A stretch of DNA of 64,000 nucleotides from Pseudomonadales bacterium (GTDB taxonomy: Bacteria > Pseudomonadota > Gammaproteobacteria > Pseudomonadales > JAHRWD01): contig JARGPR010000006.1 of the NCBI GenBank assembly GCA_029210125.1, positions 1-64,000 on the forward strand, read 5' to 3'. Position 1 is the stretch's first letter. Each line of letters begins with the position of its first letter. The translations under genes were made by a program, and so were the position numbers. Below the pieces are notes generated by a model. It was not told the origin of the DNA. It did not search any database and worked only from the letters and a program-made list of their open reading frames with translations. This document shows, one piece after another, positions 7,379 through 53,679 of the stretch.

Positions 7379-8029
7379 ATGAAAAAATTTAAAAATTTGA
7401 AGGGTTTGGTTGCTCCAATGGATCAGTCCAATGTCGATACTGATCAAATTATTCCCAAGCAGTTTTTAAAATCGATCAAACGCAGTGGCTTTGGTCCCAA
7501 TCTTTTTGATGCATGGCGTTATCTGGATGAAGGTGAACCAGGAATGGACAACAGCACCCGACCACTGAATCCGGATTTTGTATTAAATAAGGCTGAATTC
7601 AAAGGTGTTTCAATTTTGCTTGCACGGCGTAACTTTGGTTGTGGATCAAGCCGTGAACACGCGCCCTGGGCACTGGAGGATTTTGGTTTCAGAGCACTGA
7701 TTGCGCCGAGCTACGCGGATATTTTTTATAACAACTGCTTTAAAAATGGCATATTGCCGGTGATTTTGGATGAAAATATTGTTGATCGATTATTTTCGGA
7801 GCAATCACAAACAGTGGGTTATAGTCTGGAAATAGATCTCGAAAATCAGATTGTGAAAACTCCAGCGGGGGAACAATTACCTTTTGAAGTAGATGAGTTT
7901 AGAAAACATTGTTTGCTGAATGGGTTAGATGATATTGGACTTACTTTGCAGGATGAGTCAGCTATTAAAGAATACGAACAACAGCGTATAAAAGAGAAAA
8001 GTTGGTTGTTTACGGAGATGAAAGCTTAA
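7379..8029 (+). CDS. leuD: 3-isopropylmalate dehydratase small subunit
   Basis: 216 aa, the usual proteobacterial length. Swivelling domain partner of LeuC. The motif [14 protein letters not shown], which binds substrate in this family, is present near residues 83-96, and [18 protein letters not shown] is the typical N-terminus. GAGAGGAA lies in front of the ATG. Second and last gene of the leuCD operon, closed by a strong hairpin about 45 nt after the stop. Confidence 0.97.
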
Positions 8030-8073
8030 TTTAGGTTTTAACTTTACTAGAGATCTGTTCAGTAAACTGAGCA

Positions 8074-8107
8074 ATAAAAAAGGCCGCAAATTTGCGGCCT
8101 TTTTTAT
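8074..8107. terminator. strong intrinsic terminator after leuD, probably bidirectional
   Basis: A perfect 20-nt palindrome AGGCCGCAAATTTGCGGCCT (8081-8100) is flanked by an A-run before and a T-run after it, so it can end leuD on the plus strand and also tatC readthrough on the minus strand. Confidence 0.92.
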
Positions 8108-8200
8108 GATGAATTTAATAATCTATTTGGTTTTTCAATGTTCTAGTTTAGGAGTGTTCGTTCATTAGGGTTCAAACATTAACGTTTAAAGAGGTATATT

Positions 8201-8956
8201 TTAAACCCGTTCCCCGATAGGTTTTTTCACCAATTTACCGAACAGTAACCCCACTTCAAATAAGAGCCACATCGGAATTGCAAGCATAGCCTGAGAAATC
8301 ACATCCGGCGGCGTAAGTAACATGCCCATAACGAAACAAGCGATAATAATGTAGGGTCTCTTGGAGGCTAGTTTTTCAGCAGAGATAACGCCGGACAAGA
8401 TTACCAGGAAGGTTGCAATCGGTATTTCAAAGGCGATGCCAAAGGCAAAAAATAGTTTAAGCACAAAGTCCAGGTACCGGTTGATATCAGTCATCACCGA
8501 TACGCCCTCCGGCCCTACACTGGTGAAAAATCCAAATACCAGGGGGAATACAACGTAGTAGGCAAATACGATTCCCGAGTAAAAAAGTATGATGCTGGAG
8601 GCTAACACAGGGACGGCTATTCTTTTTTCATGCCGATAGAGGCCGGGTGCGATAAACCCCCAAACCTGATGCAAAATAAATGGTATAGCAGCAAAAACCG
8701 ACAGCACAATAGTGAGCTTGAAGGGTGTCAAAAATGGTGATGCGACTTCTGTCGCGATCATTGTTGCACCTTCAGGTAAATAAGCTCTCAGGGGTTCAGA
8801 CAGGAATGCGTACAGGTCGTTAGCAAAGTAGATCAAGCTCAAAAAAATTACCAAAACCGCCAGGATGGAACGTAATAACCGGTTTCTAAGCTCGAGCAGG
8901 TGGGATACCACCGGCATGGGATTTGGAGTTTCCTGCTCAGTGGTCACTGTCGGCAA
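8201..8956 (-). CDS. tatC: twin-arginine translocase subunit TatC
   Basis: 251-aa polytopic inner-membrane protein with six predicted membrane segments. It recognises twin-arginine signal peptides and nucleates the Tat pore. The family signature is visible in HLLELRNRLLRSI at the N-terminus, with the conserved FLTPFKLT-type and GIAFEIPI segments later. It starts inside the end of tatB (20-nt overlap), which suggests translational coupling. Last gene of the long ubiE-to-tatC run. Confidence 0.96.
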   Translation of the reverse strand: MPTVTTEQETPNPMPVVSHLLELRNRLLRSILAVLVIFLSLIYFANDLYAFLSEPLRAYLPEGATMIATEVASPFLTPFKLTIVLSVFAAIPFILHQVWGFIAPGLYRHEKRIAVPVLASSIILFYSGIVFAYYVVFPLVFGFFTSVGPEGVSVMTDINRYLDFVLKLFFAFGIAFEIPIATFLVILSGVISAEKLASKRPYIIIACFVMGMLLTPPDVISQAMLAIPMWLLFEVGLLFGKLVKKPIGERV

Positions 8957-19447: not shown

Positions 19448-20614
19448 CTAGTTCCTCAAAATCACAATGCTGCCATCACCAAGATCACCCCAGCCCGTTA
19501 CCAGCCCGAGTTCTGCGTCTTTAACTTGTGATTCGCCAGCGGTTCCGCGTAATTGTCGTACGGCTTCAGTGGTGTGGTTAAGTCCCCACACATGCGCCTG
19601 ACTCAATAGGCCTCCGTGAGTATTCAGTGGATAGCGACCACCAAGCTCGATATTGCCATCTTTGACAAAATCATAGGCTTCGCCACGTTCACACAGCCCC
19701 ATCGCCTCCATCTGTAGCATGACTACGTAGGTGAAGCAGTCATAGATCTGTAGGAAATCGACATCGTGAATTTTAATATCTGCAACTTCCAGTGCCTTTG
19801 GTGTTGCAAAACTTAAGCCGATCCGGAAGGGGTCGGGGCGAGTTGCAATATCATCAGCAGGGTAGGGGTGGCCTTCCGCAGCTCCCATAATGTAAACCGG
19901 TTTATGGGCGGTATCCTTGGCGATATCTGCACGGGTGATCACAACCGCTGCGGCACCATCGGTTTCAAGGCAGCAATCGAAAAGCCGCATGGGCTCAGAT
20001 ACCCAGCGTGAAGCAAGGTAATCATCCATGGTCATTTCGCGACCACGCATAAATGCTTTGTCATTGAGATGTGCGTGTTTACGGCAGGCGACAGCAATGT
20101 GCCCGGTTGCTTCGTCGGGAGTGTTGTACATTTGCTTGTGACGCATCGCTAACCATGAATACATCTGTACCGGTGCGCTGACACCGAAGGGCAGGTAGAA
20201 ACCCTGAATGGCGTTATTCAATACCGCAATGCCCGCTGAACGGCCCGGTGGCTGGCCGGGTTTTGGTCGCATTGCGGTATAACCGTTCCAGCCTAGTGTA
20301 ATCAAAACAGAGTTACATACGCCGGAGGCGATGGCGATGGCCGCATGCTGGATCGCCGCATTGGGGCTAGCGCCTCCCATATTGATAGTGGCAGCGTATC
20401 GAAGATCTTCGACCCCCAGGTTGGCAGCGAGTTCTTCTGAATAGGTGTAGCCAGGGGGCGGGATAATACCGTCGATATCCGACGGCTTCATGCCTGCATC
20501 GGCAATTGCCTTTCGTGATGCTTCCAGCATCATATCGACTTCCGATCGGCCAGACCCCTTAACGTAGTCTGTTTCACCTATGCCAACGATGGCAGTTTTG
20601 TCTTTAAAGCTCAT
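19448..20614 (-). CDS. thiolase-fold acyl-CoA enzyme (SCP-x-like, second copy)
   Basis: 388 aa, clearly paralogous to the protein at 17707-18888. It also lacks the nucleophilic Cys (INMGGASPNA near 77-86), but keeps His (H341 in GGLLSQAHVWG) where its paralogue has Tyr, and has Y291 in IYDCFTYV. It may therefore catalyse a different step (or be specific for another chain length) than the Ltp2-like copy. First gene of a four-gene minus-strand unit: thiolase-fold, DUF35, thiolase-fold, DUF35. Its upstream region holds a plus-strand RNA candidate. Confidence 0.82.
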   Translation of the reverse strand: MSFKDKTAIVGIGETDYVKGSGRSEVDMMLEASRKAIADAGMKPSDIDGIIPPPGYTYSEELAANLGVEDLRYAATINMGGASPNAAIQHAAIAIASGVCNSVLITLGWNGYTAMRPKPGQPPGRSAGIAVLNNAIQGFYLPFGVSAPVQMYSWLAMRHKQMYNTPDEATGHIAVACRKHAHLNDKAFMRGREMTMDDYLASRWVSEPMRLFDCCLETDGAAAVVITRADIAKDTAHKPVYIMGAAEGHPYPADDIATRPDPFRIGLSFATPKALEVADIKIHDVDFLQIYDCFTYVVMLQMEAMGLCERGEAYDFVKDGNIELGGRYPLNTHGGLLSQAHVWGLNHTTEAVRQLRGTAGESQVKDAELGLVTGWGDLGDGSIVILRN

Positions 20615-20777
20615 TCTTATCCTCAGATTTCAGGTTGAGAGTTAATGATCAGGTTGTAGGTTCGTCATTTTTTCTTATGAAAGTTTATATATGTAGTGTC
20701 AGTGTTTTTCTTGTTTTTAATATCTAAATTGCATATATGAGATTTTTTTGAGCTAAATCAAAAAACGCTACTATTCT

Positions 20778-20783
20778 TATAAT
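20778..20783 (+). promoter_or_regulatory. -10 box TATAAT in front of the candidate small RNA
   Basis: A perfect TATAAT at 20778-20783 lies 7-8 nt before the proposed RNA start. No good -35 box is present at 16-18 nt upstream (AAATCA), so an activator may be needed. Confidence 0.4.
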
Positions 20784-20789
20784 CAAGTC

Positions 20790-20899
20790 AAGTTTCTACA
20801 CCGGAAGCAACTTGAGCCCGAAGCAGGGCTCGCACGAAGATACTCCCCTTAGACAATTTTATATTGTCGATTAGGCTGCTAAGAAGCAGCCTTTTTTTT
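20790..20899 (+). ncRNA. candidate small RNA with three hairpins and intrinsic terminator
   Basis: About 110 nt between the thiolase operon start and the SDR stop, on the strand opposite to both. Hairpin 1: GAGCCC (20814-20819) with GGGCTC (20826-20831). Hairpin 2: GACAAT (20852-20857) with ATTGTC (20863-20868). Hairpin 3: GGCTGCT (20874-20880) with AGCAGCC (20885-20891), followed by eight T, a canonical terminator. A TATAAT lies just upstream. Between hairpins 1 and 2 is an unpaired TACTCCCCTTAG, which could pair with Shine-Dalgarno sequences. No ORF or known RNA family was recognised. The terminator has no other gene to serve on this strand. Confidence 0.6.
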
Positions 20900-20927
20900 G
20901 TCTTAAATTTGTCGATATTACTCTGAT

Positions 20928-21680
20928 TTAAACGGTGGTGTATCCACCATCTACTACTAATTCAGAGCCATGCACGTAGGAAGACTCATCCGAAGCCAGG
21001 AACAACACTGCTTTGGATACCTCTTCAGGTTCTGCCATTCTTCCGATTAACACTTTGGCCGCAATACCAGCCGCTGCCTCTGGAATGTCCGCTAGGCCTT
21101 TAGTCATTTCGGTTTTGATCATGCCGGGGTGAATCGAGTTCACGCGAATATTGTGTTTGATCAGGTCAACCGCGGCTGCTTTGGTAAGTAAACGCACGCC
21201 ACCTTTGCTGGCTTCATAGGCTGCACAGTCAGGTGCGCCGATCAGCCCATAGATGGATGAAATATTTACAATGGAGCCGCCGCCGGCCTTGTTCATCGCC
21301 GGGATGATTTCGCGGCAACCCAAAAATACGCCTTTAAGGTTTATGTCCATCACCTGGTCCCACTCATCCACACTGGTGTCTTCAAGGGATTTGGAAAGTA
21401 AAATACCGGCGTTATTCACAAGGATGTCGATTTTTCCATAGGTCTCGACAGCTTTGTCGACAACCTGTTTCCAGTCGCTTTCACTGGCAACATCATGCTT
21501 TAAAAAAATCGCTTCACCGCCGCTTTGGGTGATATTTTCGACGTTTTCGCGTCCAGCCTCTTCGTTTACGTCAGTTACGATTACCTTGGCGCCTTCGTCG
21601 GCAAATAGCCTGGCGTGGGCGCGGCCCATTCCTAGTGCAGCTCCGGTAACCAATGCAACCTTGTTATCAAGTCGTCCCAT
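20928..21680 (-). CDS. short-chain dehydrogenase/reductase (SDR)
   Basis: 250 aa with the start at 21680 (MGRLDNKVALVTG), which has GGAG about 8 nt upstream; the frame is open further to 21776 but the extra residues look non-coding. Classical SDR: nucleotide motif TGAALGMG (about 12-19), NNAG (about 88-91), and catalytic Ser...Tyr-x3-Lys in NISSIYG...AAYEASKGG. An Asp after the second strand (VTDVNEE) favours NAD(H). Similar proteins are 3-alpha/20-beta-hydroxysteroid or cyclic-alcohol dehydrogenases, which fits the neighbouring acyl-CoA genes; the substrate is not shown. Confidence 0.85.
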   Translation of the reverse strand: MGRLDNKVALVTGAALGMGRAHARLFADEGAKVIVTDVNEEAGRENVENITQSGGEAIFLKHDVASESDWKQVVDKAVETYGKIDILVNNAGILLSKSLEDTSVDEWDQVMDINLKGVFLGCREIIPAMNKAGGGSIVNISSIYGLIGAPDCAAYEASKGGVRLLTKAAAVDLIKHNIRVNSIHPGMIKTEMTKGLADIPEAAAGIAAKVLIGRMAEPEEVSKAVLFLASDESSYVHGSELVVDGGYTTV

Positions 21681-22032: not shown

Positions 22033-23979
22033 ATGCTTCGTTTTCGAAATCTTGCGCTACGTCGCGGCACACGACTATTGATAGAAAACGCCACACTAGT
22101 GGTCAATATTGGCGATCATGTAGGGCTGACCGGAGCCAATGGTTGTGGTAAATCCAGCCTGTTTTCGATGATCCTGGGTGAGCTTGAACCGGATGCCGGT
22201 GAGCTGAAGGTTGCTACTGGAATCTCGATTGCTCATGTTTCTCAGGAAACCCCGGCGGTTGATCGAGCGATTGTCGATTATGTAATCGATGGTGATGTTG
22301 GGTTTCGGAAAATTGAAAGCGAGTTATCGGAAGCGGAAAAAAATGATGATTCAATGAAGCTCGCAGAGCTACATGAACGCATGGCGATGATTGACGGTTA
22401 TGCAATCAATAGCCGCGCCGCGCGACTTCTCACTGGGCTTGGGTTTTCTCAACAGCAACACCAAAAAGCGGTTAAAGAGCTGTCCGGTGGGTGGCGTATG
22501 CGCCTTAACCTGGCTCGTGCATTGATCAGTCGTTCTGATCTATTGTTGCTGGATGAACCTACCAATCACCTTGATCTCGACGCGGTGATCTGGCTGGAAA
22601 GTTGGCTAAAAAGCTACCCTGGAACTCTGTTGTTGATTTCACATGACCGGGATTTTCTCGACAAAGTGATCAACCGTATCCTGCACGTTGAAAATCAGTC
22701 GGTGGATCTGTATAGCGGTAATTACTCATCCTTTGAGGTGCAGCGTGCGAGTCGTCTGGCGCTGCAGGATGCCAGTTACCAGAAGCAACAGAAACAGATT
22801 CAGCATATTCAGGATTATGTCAGGCGTTTTGGCGCAAAGGCTACCAAAGCTAAACAGGCTCAAAGCCGAATCAAGGCGCTTGAACGAATGGAGTTAATAG
22901 CTCCGGCACATGTGGATTCACCTTTCCATTTTAGTTTTCCGCCAGCAGAAAAAATCCCTGAACGATTACTGACCCTTGATCAGGTCGATGTCGGTTATGC
23001 TGATCCGAGCCAAGAAACCAATCCAGCGCCGATTTTAAAGGGTGTCGAGTTAAGCATCTTGGCTGGTCAGCAGATTGGCCTGCTGGGCCGAAATGGCGCG
23101 GGTAAATCGACTCTTATCAAATTAATTGCGGGTAAATTGGGGGCCATGGCAGGTACAGTGACTCCAGCCAAGGATCTCAAGATAGGTTATTTTGCCCAGC
23201 ATCAGCTCGAGCAGTTGGACGATGCCAAAAGCCCGATTGATCATCTGTCTGCTCTTGATAAACGAGCTCGTGAGCAGGATTTGCGAAACTTTATTGGCGG
23301 TTTTGGTTTTATTGGTGACCGTGCCTCGGATCCGGTTGGGCCTTTTTCCGGGGGTGAAAAAGCCCGCCTGGCGTTGGCGCTGATCGCTTATCAGCGCCCA
23401 AATTTGTTATTAATGGATGAGCCAACCAATCACCTTGACCTTGAGATGCGTCACGCATTGGTGATGGCGCTGCAGGCATTTGAGGGTGCGATGATCATCG
23501 TATCCCATGATCGCCATATGTTGCGCTCCACAACCGACAGTTTGCTGCTGGTGGATAATGGTGTTGCCGAGCCCTTTGATGGTGATCTCGATGAGTACCA
23601 GAATTGGTTGTCGGACGCGGTTCGCGCCGGAGCGCCTGATCAGGCAGCAGGTACTGATGACGGCGCCAAAGAAGGTGCTAAAAGTGACTGGGAGCCAGGT
23701 GCTTCCAAAAAGGAGCAGCGTCAGCAGCAAGCGGAAAAAAGGAAGCGGTTGCAGCCCCTGCGGAACAAATTGAACAGCTATGAAAAAAAGATGGAAGCAC
23801 TTCAGTTGGAGCTTTCAGATATGGATAAAATTCTATCCGATTCAAATAGTTACGAGGACAATAATAGGGAAAACCTGGTTGAATGGATTGCCCGGCAGGG
23901 TGTTCTAAAGCAAGAGCTGTCCAGTGTCGAAGAGAGCTGGTTTGAAGTCAGTGAGGAGTTGGAGTCCTTTGATGATTAG
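22033..23979 (+). CDS. yheS: ABC-F family ATPase YheS
   Basis: 648 aa, soluble, two ABC domains in one chain without membrane segments. Walker A GANGCGKSS (near 35) and GRNGAGKST (near 356), ABC signatures LSGGW and FSGGE, and two DEPTNHLDL Walker B segments. The linker (RRFGAKATKAKQAQSRIKAL) is the ABC-F arm that reaches into the ribosomal E-site. The C-terminus is a charged coiled coil. The sequence follows E. coli YheS closely throughout. ABC-F proteins act on ribosomes stalled on difficult sequences. Probably monocistronic or read through into the DUF2244 gene. Confidence 0.93.
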   Translation: MLRFRNLALRRGTRLLIENATLVVNIGDHVGLTGANGCGKSSLFSMILGELEPDAGELKVATGISIAHVSQETPAVDRAIVDYVIDGDVGFRKIESELSEAEKNDDSMKLAELHERMAMIDGYAINSRAARLLTGLGFSQQQHQKAVKELSGGWRMRLNLARALISRSDLLLLDEPTNHLDLDAVIWLESWLKSYPGTLLLISHDRDFLDKVINRILHVENQSVDLYSGNYSSFEVQRASRLALQDASYQKQQKQIQHIQDYVRRFGAKATKAKQAQSRIKALERMELIAPAHVDSPFHFSFPPAEKIPERLLTLDQVDVGYADPSQETNPAPILKGVELSILAGQQIGLLGRNGAGKSTLIKLIAGKLGAMAGTVTPAKDLKIGYFAQHQLEQLDDAKSPIDHLSALDKRAREQDLRNFIGGFGFIGDRASDPVGPFSGGEKARLALALIAYQRPNLLLMDEPTNHLDLEMRHALVMALQAFEGAMIIVSHDRHMLRSTTDSLLLVDNGVAEPFDGDLDEYQNWLSDAVRAGAPDQAAGTDDGAKEGAKSDWEPGASKKEQRQQQAEKRKRLQPLRNKLNSYEKKMEALQLELSDMDKILSDSNSYEDNNRENLVEWIARQGVLKQELSSVEESWFEVSEELESFDD

Positions 23980-33612: not shown

Positions 33613-35490
33613 TCATTTGTCTGCATCGTTGTGCAGGCTGTTGTAGATCTCTTCTGCCATGGCGTTGCTAATGCCGGGGGTTTTTGCGATCTCTTCGGCG
33701 CTAGCGGTTTTGATGGCCTGTAGTCCGCCAAAATGGTTGAGCAGGTTACGTTTACGTTTGGCTCCGACACCTTGAATATCTTCTAGTGTAGAACGCGTTT
33801 GGGCTTTACCGCGTCGCGCCCGGTGGCCGGTAATTGCGAAACGGTGTGCTTCATCGCGGACCTGTTGAATCAGATGCAGAGCGGGCGAGTTAGCATCAAG
33901 ATTGATCTGTCGATTATTGTCGAGAATCAGGGTTTCAAGCCCAGGCCGACGACCTGCGCCTTTGGCGACACCGACCAATAAAATATCTTCAATCTGCAGC
34001 TCGGTCAGGATTTTTTTTGCCTGGCTGAATTGCCCTTTACCACCATCGATTAAAAGTATGTCAGGTATTTTTCCTTCGCCTTTTTTGAGTCGTGTGTATC
34101 GGCGTTTGACTGCCTGGGCGATGGCGGCGTAGTCATCACCGGGGGTAATGCCATCAATATTGAATTTTCGATAATCGGATTTTTGCGCGCCCACTTGACC
34201 GAACACGACGCAGGATGCAACGGTTTGATTGCCGGAGGTATGGCTGATATCAAAGCATTCGATCCGCTGTGGAATGGTGTCTAAATCCAGTGCCGTTTGC
34301 AGGGCATCGAGGCGTTGAAATACGTTTTGTCGATTGGCGAGAAAGCTGGTGATGGCCTGTTCTGCATTGGTGATGGCCAGTGCTTTCCAGCGCTGGCGAT
34401 GGCCACGCACCCGGTCGGTGATGGTGATGGGGCGGCCAGAAACCTGCGTCAGTGCATCGGTGATGCATTGCAGGTCTTCCGGCGCTGAGTTGAGTACGAT
34501 CTGGTCAGGAATACGGCCGGTGTGATTGAGGTACAGTTGCGGTAAAAAGGCCGAGATGATCTCCTCTTCGCTGTCTTCTAATTTTGGTTTTGGAAAGTAG
34601 CTTTTGCCCCCCAATACCTGACCATCACGAATAGTGAGCAGTTGTACGCAGCAAGCTCCCGATTGTCGCGCGATCACCACCACATCGACATTGCCAGATT
34701 GGCCGCTGACATATTGGCTTTCCTGTACCTGTCTTAGTTGACTGATTTGGTCACGGATTTGCGCGGCTTTTTCGTAGTTAAGGTCGTTTGCGGCAGCTTC
34801 CATCTGCTCGCCTAGCTCGGTGATGATGTTCTGATTTTTACCCTGCAGAAACATGCTGGCGTGGCGGATATCGGTTTGATAATCCTCAGGGCTGATCAGT
34901 TTTACGCAGGGGCCGCTGCAGCGGTTAATTTGGTATTGCAGGCAGGGCCGGGTGCGGTTTTTGAAAAAGCTTTCTTCACAGGAGCGGATTTTGAACATTT
35001 TTTGTAGCAGATTGAGGCTTTCTCGTACTGCGCCGCCACTGGGGTAAGGGCCGAACAGGTTGCGATCTTTGCGATGCGCGCCGCGATAGGATCCCATTCG
35101 AGGGTAATTCTTATCTTTGGAAAGCACGATGTAGGGGTAGGATTTATCGTCCCGCAAAAGGATGTTGTAGGGTGGTTTGAGGGTTTTGATCAGATTGTGT
35201 TCCAGCAATAACGCTTCGGTTTCGCTGTGGGTTACGGTGATCTCGATCTGGTCGATTTTGCTGACCAGTGCAACGGTTTTGTTGGTGAGGCCGGATGCGC
35301 GAAAGTAACTGGAAACACGGTTTTTAAGGTTTTTGGCTTTGCCGACGTAAAGCACATCTCCCTGTCGATCGAGCATTTTGTAAATGCCGGGACGGCTGGT
35401 TAGCGTGCTTAAAAACGCTTTACTATCGAACCGAGATGGTTCGGTTGTTTGTGCGGCAGTTTGTTCTTTGGAGGGTTCGACTTCTGACAT
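33613..35490 (-). CDS. uvrC: excinuclease ABC subunit C
   Basis: 625 aa. Makes both incisions in nucleotide excision repair. GIY-YIG nuclease at the N-terminus (RPGIYKML...VLYVGKAKNLKNR), a cysteine cluster in SCEESFFKNRTRPCLQYQINRCSGPC, a UVR motif (NYEKAAQIRDQI), an RNase H-like 5'-incision domain (ECFDISHTSG, LLIDGGKGQ) and a C-terminal (HhH)2 motif. The first about 20 residues are a variable polar extension. Cotranscribed with pgsA, as in E. coli. Confidence 0.96.
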   Translation of the reverse strand: MSEVEPSKEQTAAQTTEPSRFDSKAFLSTLTSRPGIYKMLDRQGDVLYVGKAKNLKNRVSSYFRASGLTNKTVALVSKIDQIEITVTHSETEALLLEHNLIKTLKPPYNILLRDDKSYPYIVLSKDKNYPRMGSYRGAHRKDRNLFGPYPSGGAVRESLNLLQKMFKIRSCEESFFKNRTRPCLQYQINRCSGPCVKLISPEDYQTDIRHASMFLQGKNQNIITELGEQMEAAANDLNYEKAAQIRDQISQLRQVQESQYVSGQSGNVDVVVIARQSGACCVQLLTIRDGQVLGGKSYFPKPKLEDSEEEIISAFLPQLYLNHTGRIPDQIVLNSAPEDLQCITDALTQVSGRPITITDRVRGHRQRWKALAITNAEQAITSFLANRQNVFQRLDALQTALDLDTIPQRIECFDISHTSGNQTVASCVVFGQVGAQKSDYRKFNIDGITPGDDYAAIAQAVKRRYTRLKKGEGKIPDILLIDGGKGQFSQAKKILTELQIEDILLVGVAKGAGRRPGLETLILDNNRQINLDANSPALHLIQQVRDEAHRFAITGHRARRGKAQTRSTLEDIQGVGAKRKRNLLNHFGGLQAIKTASAEEIAKTPGISNAMAEEIYNSLHNDADK

Positions 35491-35562
35491 GGTCTGCGGT
35501 TGCTATTCAGTCGGGGGGAGAAGATGGTGAGAATAGCATTGAAGAGCGTGCTGTGCAGCGGA

Positions 35563-35604
35563 GCCGATGAATAACGGACAACTTGAATCCAGTTATTCAT
35601 CGGC
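35563..35604. repeat. perfect 13-bp inverted repeat between htpG and uvrC
   Basis: GCCGATGAATAAC (35563-35575) is exactly complementary to GTTATTCATCGGC (35592-35604), with a 16-nt loop. It lies 28 nt after the htpG stop on the minus strand. Neither side has a U-tract, so it is either a non-canonical htpG transcript end or a binding site. Confidence 0.6.
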
Positions 35605-35631
35605 AGTGCTTTTAGCCGCGTGCGATGGTTT

Positions 35632-37545
35632 CTACTTAGCCATCTCCATCAATAGACTATTTAGACGGTGCACATAGCTGCTGGGATCTTCCAGCTGAAT
35701 TCCCTGAGCTAGTTGCGCCTGGTTGAATACGATCGATGCAAGATCATTGAATCGATCGGTGTCGGTTTCATCATTTAGCTTCTGGATCAGTGGGTGCTCT
35801 GTATTGAGCTCCATGATGGGGTTGTTGGTCGGCATTGCCTGTCCGGCCGCTTCCATGATTTTTTGCATCTGCAGGCCCATATCGTCGTCACCAACGACCA
35901 AGCATGCAGGTGATTCGGTGAGCCGATTGGTGGTGCGTACTTCGCTAACCTGATCCTTGAGGGTCTCCTGAACCTGTTCAAGCAAGCTCTTGAAGGTTTC
36001 GTTACGCTCTTCGCTATCGTCTTTTTCATCCTTGTCGATCTCGCCGAGATCTAGCTCGCCACGGGCAATATCTTGAAGGCTTTTTCCGTCATATTCAGAA
36101 AGCTGGCTGACCAACCAGTCATCGATGCGATCATAAAGAATAAATACTTCGATCCCTTTTTTGCGGAAAATCTCCATGTGAGGATTGTTGAGCCCGGCCT
36201 TGAAGGTATCTGCGCAGGTGTAATAAATTTTGTCCTGGCCCGGTTGCATGCGTTCGATGTAGGCGTCAAAGGATTGGTCCTGAGTATCTTTACCGGTTTC
36301 GGTGCTGGCAAAACGGAACAGTTTGGCGATTTTCTCACGATTGGTGAAATCTTCGGCAGGGCCTTCTTTGAGTACCTGACCGAATTCGTTCCAGAATTTT
36401 AGATATTGCTCAGGGTCCTTTTTAGCCAGCTTGCTCAACATGTCGAGTACACGTTTGATCAGTGCGTTGCGCATCGAATCGATGGCGGGGTCCTGTTGTA
36501 AAATCTCACGGGAAACGTTTAGGGATAGATCGTTTGAATCGATGATACCCTTAACAAATCGTAGGTATAGCGGAAGAAACTGCTCAGCTTCATCCATGAT
36601 AAATACTTTTTGCACGTAGAGTTTCAGGCCGCGCGGTGCCTCGCGGTTCCACATATCAAAGGGAGCGCGAGCCGGGATGTAGAGCAGGCTGGTGTAGTCC
36701 AGTTTGCCTTCGACTTTGTTATGACTCCATGTGAGCGGGTCTTCGAAATCGTGGGAAACGTGCTTGTAAAATTCGTTGTATTCCTGGTCTTCGATTTCGG
36801 ATTTAGAGCGCGCCCACAGTGCAGTTGCGGTGTTTACGGTTTCGAAACTCGGTTCCTTTTTGTCGCCCTCTTCTTCATTTGGATCGTCAAAAACTTGCTC
36901 TAACATTACGATAGGTAGCGAAATGTGATCGGAGTATTTTTTGATCACGTGTCGTAAGCGGGTGCCGTCGGCAAATTCACTCTCTTCTTTTTTCAAATGA
37001 AGGATAACGGTGGTGCCACGATTGGATTTCTCGATCGGCTCGATGCTGAAATCCGCCTCGCCGGTAGAACTCCAGCGCACGCCCTGGTCCGCCGCCTGTC
37101 CCGCTTTTCGGGTTTCAACATCCACTTTATCGGCCACGATAAATGATGAATAAAAACCTACTCCAAACTGACCAATCAATTGTGAATCGCTTTTTTGATC
37201 TCCGGTAAGGGATGCCAGGAATTCGCTAGTGCCAGACTTCGCGATGGTGCCAAGATGTGAGATCACTTCGGCTTCATCCATCCCGATACCGTTGTCGCTG
37301 ATAGAAAGCGTATTGGCATCCTTGTCGAATTCGATCGTAATCTTTAGGTCAGGGTCATCCTCAAATAGAGTTCCGTCAGCAAGACCCTGAAACCGCAGTT
37401 TATCTGCAGCATCAGAAGCGTTGGAGATTAATTCACGAAGGAAAATCTCCTTGTTGCTGTAGAGTGAGTGGATCATTAGCTGAAGCATTTGTTTTGCTTC
37501 TGTCTGGAATCCATGAGTTTGCTTTTGTGCTTCTTCAGTGCTCAT
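35632..37545 (-). CDS. htpG: molecular chaperone HtpG (Hsp90)
   Basis: 637 aa. N-terminal GHKL ATPase domain (about 1-230: [36 protein letters not shown]), middle domain with the [12 protein letters not shown] and NVSREILQ segments, and a C-terminal dimerisation domain. Length matches E. coli HtpG (624 aa). Divergent from lpxC. A TTGACA lies upstream on the minus strand (reverse complement of about 37595-37600), but I saw no clear sigma-32 box. Confidence 0.97.
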
Positions 37546-48639: not shown

Positions 48640-50358
48640 TTAGTCCTTCGTAACTCGGTTGATTTCCTCAAGGGTTGTAACGCCTTGTCTGATTTTTAAT
48701 AGGCCAGATTGTCGAAGGTTGTTGAAACCCTCAACATTGTGGGCCTGTTCGGCGATTTGAATGGAGTTGCCGTCTGACATAATAATTTCAGCGAGTTGAT
48801 CGGATATAGGCACGACTTCATACACACCGACACGACCTTTATAGCCGTTATTACATTTGTCACAGCCGACGGCGGTATAAATCGATAATTCGCCCAAATC
48901 TTCTTCACGAAACCCTTCCTCTAGCAAGGTGTTTTCCGGGATAGTGATGGGTTCCTTGCAGTGTTCGCATAATTTCCTTGCTAGCCGTTGTGCGATAATC
49001 AAACTTACAGATGTTGCAATATTAAAAGCCGGTACACCCATATTGCGTAGGCGGGTCAGCGTTTCTGCAGCACTGTTGGTATGAAGCGTCGACAATACCA
49101 GGTGACCGGTTTGAGCCGCTTTAACGGCGACCTCTGCGGTTGTTAAATCTCGGATCTCACCGACCATGATGATATCGGGATCCTGCCGCAGAAAGGCTCG
49201 CAAGGCTTCGGCGAAATCTAACCCAACCTTGTAGTTCATGTTGACCTGGTTGATCCCTTCCAGATTGATCTCTACCGGGTCCTCTGCTGTGGAGATATTG
49301 CGCTCGTCATTGTTGAGAATGTTCAAACCCGTATAGAGCGATACGGTTTTACCACTTCCTGTTGGTCCGGTTACCAGTATCATTCCCTGAGGCCTGTGCA
49401 AGGCCTTCATAAAAAGATCTTTTTGATCCGGTTCATAGCCCAATGAATCGATCCCCATTTGGGCGCTCGACGGGTCTAATATACGTAGAACGATTTTTTC
49501 GCCCCACAGCGTTGGGAGCGTGTTTACACGAAAATCGATGGAGCGGCTTCTTGATAATTTAAGTTTGATCCGGCCATCCTGCGGAATACGTCTCTCGGAA
49601 ATATCCATTTGAGACATCACCTTGAGTCGCACGGTAATGCGTGCAGAAATGTTTTGCGGTGGGCGAGTACGTTCGTGCAATATACCGTCGGTCCGAAACC
49701 GCACTCGGTAAATCTTCTCATAGGGCTCAAAGTGAATATCCGATGCACCCATCTTAATGGCGTCAAGAAGCACTTTGTTTATAAAACGGACGATAGGTGC
49801 TTCATCGACTTCAGAGGTATCTTCATCGCCTCCATTCTCCTCATCAACAGCAGCGACATCTAACCCATCAAGGTCGGCATCATCGAGGCCATCAAGGTTC
49901 ATCATTTGGTCGTCGTCTTGCTCAAGAAGCTGCGCGATAGTATCGCTAAGCTTGTCTTCTTCAACCAGTATGGCTTGAGTACTTATCCCCGTATGGAAGG
50001 TTAGCTCGTCGAGGGCACGAAGATTGGTAGGGTCTGAGACAGCGATATAAAGCCGGTTTTCCCTTTTGAACAAAGGAATTGTGTGATGCATGCGGATCAG
50101 CTTGATATCCACCACATCCTTGGGAAACAGGTCTTTGTCGAACGCAGCCAGGTCCAGTACCGGTGCACCAAACTGCGCAGAAGCCGCTAACGCGATGTCG
50201 GTGCTGGATGCCAAATTGTTGGTCACCAGGTACGAAACGAATGGCGTGTTGCTGCTATTCGCCTGGTCCAACGCCTCTCGAGCACTTTCCTCTTCGAGGA
50301 TGCCATCATCAACTAATCGTTTGGGTAAACCATTTAGCGGTAGTGCAATTGCTTCCAT
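48640..50358 (-). CDS. pilB: type IV pilus extension ATPase PilB
   Basis: 572 aa. N-terminal GspE_N (MshEN-like) domain (about 1-150), Walker A GPTGSGKTVS, Asp box and Walker B (DPDIIMVGEIRD), and a zinc tetracysteine in LCEHCKEP...GCDKCNNG. Drives pilus polymerisation. An acidic insert (DDADLDGLDVAAVDEENGG region, about 155-180) separates the N-terminal and motor domains. First gene of pilBCD, divergent from pilA. Confidence 0.96.
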   Translation of the reverse strand: MEAIALPLNGLPKRLVDDGILEEESAREALDQANSSNTPFVSYLVTNNLASSTDIALAASAQFGAPVLDLAAFDKDLFPKDVVDIKLIRMHHTIPLFKRENRLYIAVSDPTNLRALDELTFHTGISTQAILVEEDKLSDTIAQLLEQDDDQMMNLDGLDDADLDGLDVAAVDEENGGDEDTSEVDEAPIVRFINKVLLDAIKMGASDIHFEPYEKIYRVRFRTDGILHERTRPPQNISARITVRLKVMSQMDISERRIPQDGRIKLKLSRSRSIDFRVNTLPTLWGEKIVLRILDPSSAQMGIDSLGYEPDQKDLFMKALHRPQGMILVTGPTGSGKTVSLYTGLNILNNDERNISTAEDPVEINLEGINQVNMNYKVGLDFAEALRAFLRQDPDIIMVGEIRDLTTAEVAVKAAQTGHLVLSTLHTNSAAETLTRLRNMGVPAFNIATSVSLIIAQRLARKLCEHCKEPITIPENTLLEEGFREEDLGELSIYTAVGCDKCNNGYKGRVGVYEVVPISDQLAEIIMSDGNSIQIAEQAHNVEGFNNLRQSGLLKIRQGVTTLEEINRVTKD

Positions 50359-51032: not shown

Positions 51033-51464
51033 ATGAAAACAATGCAAAAGGGTTTTACTCTAATTGAATTGATGATCGTAGTAGCGATTATCGGTATTTT
51101 GGCTGCTGTAGCGCTGCCTGCTTATCAAGATTATATTGTACGTGCCAAGGTTGCAGAATTGCCGTTAGCGGCTGGTCCAAGTAAAAATGCAATGGCAGAA
51201 TGGGCGGCGTTTCATTCGACTGATGCCTGGCCAGTATCGACAAGTGCTGCTCAAGTTGGCGTAGTTGATGCGACCGGGGAGTATTTGAAGTCTATTGCGT
51301 ACGTTCAGACAAGCGGTACTGTGGCAGCAGTTCAAGTAAATGGTACGATAGAGGGCATAGATATCACTCTACAGTACAATGGCACAAAAAGTGGCGCCAA
51401 AGTAACTTGGACATGTAGCGCCGTTGCGGGTACAAAGTACTTGCCTGCAAACTGCAGAAATTAA
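51033..51464 (+). CDS. pilA: type IVa major pilin PilA
   Basis: 143 aa prepilin. The six-residue basic leader ends in KG, with cleavage before F8, and Glu at mature position 5 (E12). The hydrophobic alpha-1N helix follows ([19 protein letters not shown]). C-terminal disulfide loop between C128 and C141. The middle is rich in Ser/Thr and small residues, possible glycosylation sites. Own RpoN promoter and terminator, so a single-gene transcript. Two glycosylation-type genes follow on the same strand. Confidence 0.96.
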
Positions 51465-51505: not shown

Positions 51506-51543
51506 AAAAAGGGTGTTGAACTTTAGCTTCGACACCCTTTTTT
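51506..51543 (+). terminator. strong intrinsic terminator after pilA
   Basis: GGGTGTTGAA (51511-51520) pairs with TTCGACACCC (51528-51537; one T-G pair) around a CTTTAGC loop. A run of A precedes it and six T follow. Confidence 0.92.
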
Positions 51544-51717: not shown

Positions 51718-53679
51718 ATGAATAAAATAAAACGTTTTCTTTTTTATCTGTCGGTTACTTTTTTCTCATTCCTGATCGCCTTAATGCTTTACATCAAAGG
51801 CTTCCCTGGCCCAATGTTACTAGATGATAAGGTCAATTTGCAGAGTACAGAGCTATACGCACTGGATAAACACTCGCTTTTACACGTTATTACACACAAT
51901 TATAGTGGCATGCTGGGTCGCGGTATTTCGAGCTTAAGTTTTGGCTTGACACATTTTTTTCATGGTAGTGGTACCTATTATTATAAATACCACAACTTTA
52001 TGATTCATTGCCTGACCGCATTAGCGCTATTTTATCTAGGTTACCGGTTACTGCACTTAACCCGGCATGCTGAAAAAGCACTTGTGATCGCTGCGCTCGC
52101 CGCATTTATTTGGCTGATCCATCCAATCCAGGTCAGCACTGTTCTGTATATCGTCCAGCGTATGGCCCAGCTCAGCGCCTTATTTACCGTATGCGCACTG
52201 ATTTGTTATGTGGTGGGGCGGGTCCGAATTGAAGAAGAGCGACGCTTCGGTGTAAGCATAATTGTTATAGGTTACCCGTTTTTTCTGATATTGGGGTTGT
52301 TGAGCAAAGAAAATGCCGCACTTTGTATTTTGTTTGCGCTGGTGATTGAAGCTTTCTTTTTCTCGTCATTTGATGTCGGAATGATTGAGAGAATGGGCAT
52401 ATCCCCTGCGAATAATGTGAAGGATAAACGTTTTCATAGAAGATGGTTTGTTCGTATTTGCTTTATTGCTCTCCCGCTTGCTCTGGGTGTTGCTGGTGTT
52501 TTATATAAGATGGACTCTTTTTTGGTTGGGTATGAGGGTCGTCCGTTTAGTCTATCTGAAAGATTGCTAACCCAAATTGACGTACTATTTTACTATCTAC
52601 AGTTGATCCTGCTACCGCGCCTTTCTGAATATTCGCTCTATCATGATGATTTTCCAGTCGTAACTCAATTTGGTTGGGGCACTTTTTTTCGGTTATCTAT
52701 TATTGTCGGTGTGGCTGCTTTAAGCGTGGTTTCAATCGCGAAGAAAAAAATTAATTTGATCCTTTTTGGTTTAGCCTGGTTTTTGGTCGCTCATGCGATG
52801 GAATCTACGGTTATTCCACTGGAGATGATATTTGAGCACAGGAACTATCTGGCCAGCTATGGAGTGGTGTTTGCACTATCGGTATTTTTACTGATGTATC
52901 TGCCTGAATATATAAAATCGATAAAATTTTCCTATGGCGTAACTGCGGTATTCATTATCCTTTGCTCGTTTGTTTTATTTGTACGGGTAGATACATGGGG
53001 TAGTGAAGAGCAGCTGACCCTGGTAAATGTAACCGATCACCCCAGGTCAGCACGAGCACATACGGCGAGAGCCAATGCGCTCGCCGCATATCAACGAAGT
53101 GATGAGATGATTGAGCACCTTAGAATCGCCCACGAACTGGAGCCCTGGAATCCGGGTGCAGCTATACATCGACTCGCTGCGGCATGCGTTTTTGAGAAAC
53201 TCACACCTGATATCGTTAACGAAGCCAAAAACGCGTTGAGTAACGGGTATTTAACGGCTTATGCTTGGCTTGCTATCGACAGTCTGGTATCTAATGTCGA
53301 GTATAAACGTTGCCAAATGGATGGTGCTGATGTTTTGGGCGTGCTGGATGCTATAGATGAAAATCGTCATGGGCTTACTGCGGATGCGCAGGGAAAAAAA
53401 ACATTTTTTCTCGCGCGTTTATACCAAAGCTGGGGGGATGACAGGCAAGCAATAGAGTATTATGATCGTGCAATTGCTCTTGATGGTGAAGCTACCGCCT
53501 ATGCAATCGCCAAAGCCAAGTTTTTAATAAGAAATGGATATGTAGAGGAAGCAAAGGCTGCAATGCTGTCTATTGTAGAAGCGGATAAGGGTTCATTGCG
53601 GGATGAAGCTAAAAATATTAAGACGCTCTTCACTATGCTTATGGATGCAGAGCTTGAAGTGATGGAAAATGAAAACTAG
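51718..53679 (+). CDS. TMTC-like GT-C membrane glycosyltransferase with C-terminal TPRs
   Basis: 653 aa. About ten membrane segments in the first 430 residues, then TPR-like helices (about 440-640; RAHTARANALAAY, RLYQSWGDDRQAIEYYDRAIAL). Features of eukaryotic TMTC O-mannosyltransferases and their bacterial relatives: acidic pair D36-D37 in the first periplasmic loop, HPIQ (135-138) followed by IVQR, and SKEN (196-199). Such GT-C enzymes take sugars from polyprenyl phosphate outside the cytoplasm. It lies between pilA and a DPM1-like gene, so pilin or another surface protein is the likely acceptor (inference). No Wzy_C/PilO domain was seen. Confidence 0.72.
   Translation: MNKIKRFLFYLSVTFFSFLIALMLYIKGFPGPMLLDDKVNLQSTELYALDKHSLLHVITHNYSGMLGRGISSLSFGLTHFFHGSGTYYYKYHNFMIHCLTALALFYLGYRLLHLTRHAEKALVIAALAAFIWLIHPIQVSTVLYIVQRMAQLSALFTVCALICYVVGRVRIEEERRFGVSIIVIGYPFFLILGLLSKENAALCILFALVIEAFFFSSFDVGMIERMGISPANNVKDKRFHRRWFVRICFIALPLALGVAGVLYKMDSFLVGYEGRPFSLSERLLTQIDVLFYYLQLILLPRLSEYSLYHDDFPVVTQFGWGTFFRLSIIVGVAALSVVSIAKKKINLILFGLAWFLVAHAMESTVIPLEMIFEHRNYLASYGVVFALSVFLLMYLPEYIKSIKFSYGVTAVFIILCSFVLFVRVDTWGSEEQLTLVNVTDHPRSARAHTARANALAAYQRSDEMIEHLRIAHELEPWNPGAAIHRLAAACVFEKLTPDIVNEAKNALSNGYLTAYAWLAIDSLVSNVEYKRCQMDGADVLGVLDAIDENRHGLTADAQGKKTFFLARLYQSWGDDRQAIEYYDRAIALDGEATAYAIAKAKFLIRNGYVEEAKAAMLSIVEADKGSLRDEAKNIKTLFTMLMDAELEVMENEN

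Follow-up and report, generated by a model that had tools for sequence, protein, structure and literature searches.

The window, by which is meant the whole 64-kb stretch of DNA that was analysed, belongs to a host draft genome of 3.13 Mb, whose gene content, together with related records, suggests the gammaproteobacterial order Pseudomonadales. Within it, a thiolase-like gene on the minus strand (19448-20614), which resembles lipid-transfer proteins and acetyl-CoA acetyltransferases and is accompanied by ChsH2-like OB-fold partners, is separated by a 313-bp gap from an SDR oxidoreductase gene, also on the minus strand (20928-21680/21776). The candidate sRNA element lies within this gap on the plus strand, and the original prediction that it runs opposite to both flanking genes was thus borne out. 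No open reading frame of more than 30 codons was found in the gap, and the nearest downstream gene on the plus strand encodes an ABC-F ATPase and starts at 22033. The SDR gene and the thiolase operon share a strand and no minus-strand terminator was found between them (20614-20928), so that transcriptional read-through from the SDR gene into the thiolase operon is possible.

An intrinsic terminator that ends no gene

The element closes with an intrinsic terminator on the plus strand at 20873-20899, AGGCTGCT-AAGA-AGCAGCCT (also given as AGGCUGCU-AAGA-AGCAGCCU), with a U8 tail. Its stem, GGCTGCT/AGCAGCC, comprises seven base pairs plus a closing A-T pair (20873-20892), and the predicted run of eight T is indeed present, uninterrupted, at 20892-20899. 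A strict terminator scan, which required at least seven pairs, at least five of them G-C, and T at 7/8 tail positions, returned three plus-strand places in the 64-kb window versus none in 20 Markov-shuffled controls; a loose scan was uninformative (7 found versus 7.1 expected). Besides the terminator of the element (20874-20891, plus strand), the strict scan returned 8082-8099, which reads on both strands, follows the plus-strand gene at 7379-8029 and faces the minus-strand gene at 8201-8956, and 51511-51537, on the plus strand after a pilin-like gene (51033-51464). The terminator of the element is the only one of these that ends no gene, as had been claimed, and the only one with eight unbroken T, the tails of the other two being T6 interrupted by A or G (TTTTTTAT and TTTTTTGT). 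By its pattern, the terminator at 20874-20891 is real. On the minus strand no T run is present beyond the hairpin, and it therefore does not serve the SDR gene.

Orphan terminators have previously led to the successful identification of sRNAs (PMC2573895). Furthermore, a poly(U) tail of at least seven residues has been described as required by Hfq-bound sRNAs, while the tails of mRNAs are often shorter or broken (PMC9765468). At least seven unbroken U, in a terminator that ends no open reading frame, form the criterion for an Hfq-dependent trans-acting sRNA (PMC9765468), and the terminator of the element has both properties. Hfq itself is encoded by the host genome (G000:C4:12618-12803; 103 bits, above the cut-off).

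The pilin-like gene, of Type IV, has the terminator at 51511-51537 as its own. Downstream of it comes a gene for a large membrane protein (51718-53679), and a PilB-like ATPase gene (48640-50358) lies opposite.

Predicted fold of the element

The three perfect stems of 6, 6 and 7 bp described in the original prediction are present in the letters where they had been placed, and correspond to H2, H3 and the terminator. H2 (20814-20831, plus strand; GAGCCC-GAAGCA-GGGCUC, 6 bp) has a pair probability of 0.9-1.0, and H3 (20852-20868, plus strand; GACAAU-UUUAU-AUUGUC, 6 bp) one of about 1. A fourth, 5' hairpin that was absent from the earlier list, H1, is formed at 20792-20808 on the plus strand by GUUUCU/GGAAGC, with G-U pairs, or alternatively by CAAGUU/AACUUG; its pair probability is 0.89-0.99, and remains about 0.9 or more for starts from 20784 to 20792.

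The fold as a whole gave a z-score of -4.47, with 0/200 shuffles equally stable, and a z-score of -4.8 for 20784-20899. Once the terminator was removed the z-score was -3.4, and for H1-H3 alone it was about -3.2. A fold profile of the entire window in steps of 80, with a mean z of -0.26 and an sd of 1.2, showed only a handful of places comparable to the element, and those checked, at 8001 and 51441, contain ordinary gene terminators. The strongest local fold of the window (z -7.7), at 8001-8116, corresponds to GGCCGCAAATTTGCGGCC, a bidirectional terminator flanked by T6 on either side and placed between convergent genes, and the second strongest, at 35521-35640 (z -6.05), is located between the minus-strand genes 33613-35490 and 35632-37545.

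Sequences upstream of the element

A putative -10 element, TATAAT, is found on the plus strand at 20778-20783, from which a start at about 20789-20791 would be expected. While the exact letters of the predicted hexamer are present, they have no -35 partner, and the plus strand of the window contains 11 exact copies of TATAAT, which is the background frequency. A scan for sigma-70 promoters did not report the hexamer at 20778-20783, because no -35 element fits.

Further upstream, an FNR-like palindrome, TTGAGctaaATCAA (20748-20761), matches 9/10 consensus bases and forms the core of a T-tract/A-tract inverted repeat. It is doubtful as a regulator site; 9/10 matches to the FNR box occur 11 times in the 64-kb window, again at background frequency. 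The centre of the palindrome lies 23.5 nt upstream of the -10 element, or at about -35.5 if the start is at 20790. An FNR/ANR box is expected to be centred near -41.5 from the start site. Regulation as an FNR-activated sRNA, in the manner of FnrS or PhrS, was therefore rejected, since the box stands some 6 nt nearer than class II activation would allow and does not exceed background. The palindrome may instead belong to the divergent thiolase operon or have no role at all. No good CRP-type site was found, the best match (8/10) being this same palindrome.

A C-rich linker between H2 and H3

H2 and H3 are joined on the plus strand by a mostly unpaired linker, GCACGAAGAUACUCCCCUUA (20832-20851), the putative target-pairing seed. 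Positions 20840-20847 are unpaired with a probability of about 0.9 or more, and the GAAG and CUU parts with one of about 0.5-0.7, the CUU end having about 0.6-0.7. The linker as first delimited, TACTCCCCTTAG, spans 20841-20852, and its final G pairs within the H3 stem. It had been proposed to be single-stranded and to resemble an anti-Shine-Dalgarno sequence. The first of these properties largely stands, but the search for targets added nothing to the second: in genome-wide pattern counts, the complement of the linker, CTAAGGGGAGTATC, with up to three mismatches, occurred 124 times versus 127 for a reversed-pattern control, showing no enrichment, and at the start regions of the neighbouring genes the predicted pairing was no better than that of shuffled linkers. 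Within the window, the ribosome-binding site of the SDR gene, UGGAGUA, pairs over six bases with UACUCC of the linker (-8.1 kcal/mol), which shuffled linkers equal. An anti-Shine-Dalgarno role of the linker is possible but unsupported. The further suggestion of local metabolic control of the acyl-CoA and SDR genes had the position of the element as its sole support, and the comparison with shuffled linkers did not sustain it.

Conservation and likeness to known sRNAs

At Rfam gathering thresholds, the window yielded three tRNAs only. The best sub-threshold match to the element was RyhB (RF00057), with 22.5 bits at 20849-20899 versus a gathering score of 55, and what is matched amounts to little more than the terminator hairpin with its U tail. 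The prediction that the element matches no known family thus agrees with the Rfam check, in which no family reached its threshold.

A DNA search of 57 relatives returned the element's own locus only, and no match was found among plasmids and phages. A covariance model, which was built from one sequence and used with strict filters so that diverged relatives can be missed, scored its own locus at 151.7 bits; the next-best score among 392 genomes of the order was 30.4 bits, the best among 369 genomes of the class was 26.5 bits, and no convincing relative was found across either set. The 30.4-bit match, L087, displays apparent compensatory changes in H2 and was rejected as a homologue because it consists of the last codons of a MetZ-like gene and the terminator of that gene. 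From its protein sequence, we take this gene to encode an O-succinylhomoserine sulfhydrylase-like protein (MetZ). Most of the remaining weak matches were rejected because they overlap or directly follow the end of a gene, or retain the terminator alone, and two that do lie between genes, L094 and L131, because their linker is not common with that of the query. As a single-sequence model may miss diverged relatives, these searches show that the element is not widely conserved, rather than that it lacks relatives altogether.

When synteny was followed through the thiolase gene and through the SDR gene, relatives carried these genes in other settings. In G001, the one genome of the same genus that was compared, orthologues of both flanking genes are absent, the paralogues of the thiolase and SDR genes being 36% and 51% identical.

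In RoxS/RsaE and FsrA from Firmicutes, an exposed C-rich stretch pairs with G-rich Shine-Dalgarno regions, and the known cases have metabolic targets (PMC8216469). The linker of the element is likewise C-rich and predicted to be exposed. However, these RNAs differ from the element in that there is neither a sequence match nor an Rfam match, and they belong to another phylum. The candidate is also similar to enterobacterial CyaR, whose seed pairs with the Shine-Dalgarno sequence of ompX and which possesses a stable 3' terminator and uses Hfq (PMC11795201). Yet while CyaR is both CRP- and Hfq-dependent, the element has no Rfam match and lacks a good CRP-type site.

Interpretation of the element

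The orphan U8 terminator, the stable fold, the mostly unpaired C-rich linker, the Hfq of the host and the absence of an Rfam family together point to the region at about 20790-20899 (plus strand) as a lineage-specific gene for an Hfq-type trans-acting sRNA, whose C-rich linker would block ribosome-binding sites. This is the reading toward which we lean, with confidence a little better than even; it is plausible and partly supported, and the layout of the element fits it. Against it stand the failure of the searches to find a relative, and with it any evolutionary sign of selection, a TATAAT that lacks a -35 and is at background frequency, and the finding of neither an excess of linker complements in the genome nor above-background pairing at the local start regions. 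The region would be transcribed from its own promoter to give a small RNA of roughly 105-115 nt, the 3' end of which Hfq would hold via the U8 terminator. The unpaired C-rich linker, GAUACUCCCCUUA, may then pair with mRNAs from other parts of the genome at their purine-rich ribosome-binding sites, and this pairing would be predicted to lower their translation.

The main rival to an sRNA gene is a bare insulating terminator, which would keep stray or antisense plus-strand transcription that originates in the thiolase promoter region from running into the SDR gene, leaving a short upstream transcript without a function of its own. The terminator is the strongest part of the element, both metabolic genes lie on the other strand, and neither a target signal nor conservation was found, all of which would suit an insulator. 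However, such a device needs no H1-H3, yet these hairpins are more stable than their shuffles (z about -3.2 to -3.4), and sRNAs are the more typical bearers of an unbroken U8; we consider the insulator fairly unlikely. Next comes interference in cis, in which the plus-strand RNA, or its transcription, would act against read-through from the SDR gene into the thiolase operon. The two lie 313 bp apart on one strand, no minus-strand terminator-like site was found in between, and any such read-through RNA would be complementary to the element along its full length. This complementarity is nevertheless automatic for any transcript of the opposite strand, the co-transcription of the SDR and thiolase genes is a supposition, and the pair was not found linked in relatives, which makes an antisense role distinctly improbable.

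It could further be argued that the RNA is translated, either as a small-protein mRNA or as a dual-function RNA, from a frame of 20 codons that begins with TTG at 20812 and ends with TAG at 20874 (MSPKQGSHEDTPLRQFYIVD). The stop falls where the terminator stem begins to pair, and a CGGAAG lies a few bases upstream of the start. Conversely, the start is a TTG with a weak Shine-Dalgarno sequence, situated at the foot of the H2 stem, and other frames of the same gap also hold open reading frames of 20-30 codons, so that translation of this frame appears very improbable.

A more ambitious form of the sRNA-gene reading would have the element found a new lineage-specific sRNA family, in which an anti-Shine-Dalgarno linker as in RoxS/RsaE operates in an Hfq-bearing gammaproteobacterium and several mRNAs are controlled from the thiolase-SDR locus; this we regard as unlikely. 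The useful part of the analysis is negative: the metabolic neighbours, the TATAAT and the FNR-like box carry little weight, and the orphan U8 terminator carries most. The element is an ordinary candidate which, even if real, would leave the understanding of sRNAs unchanged. If it is transcribed, it would represent a further unclassified sRNA, from a lineage that has been poorly sampled, and would offer a clear candidate seed.
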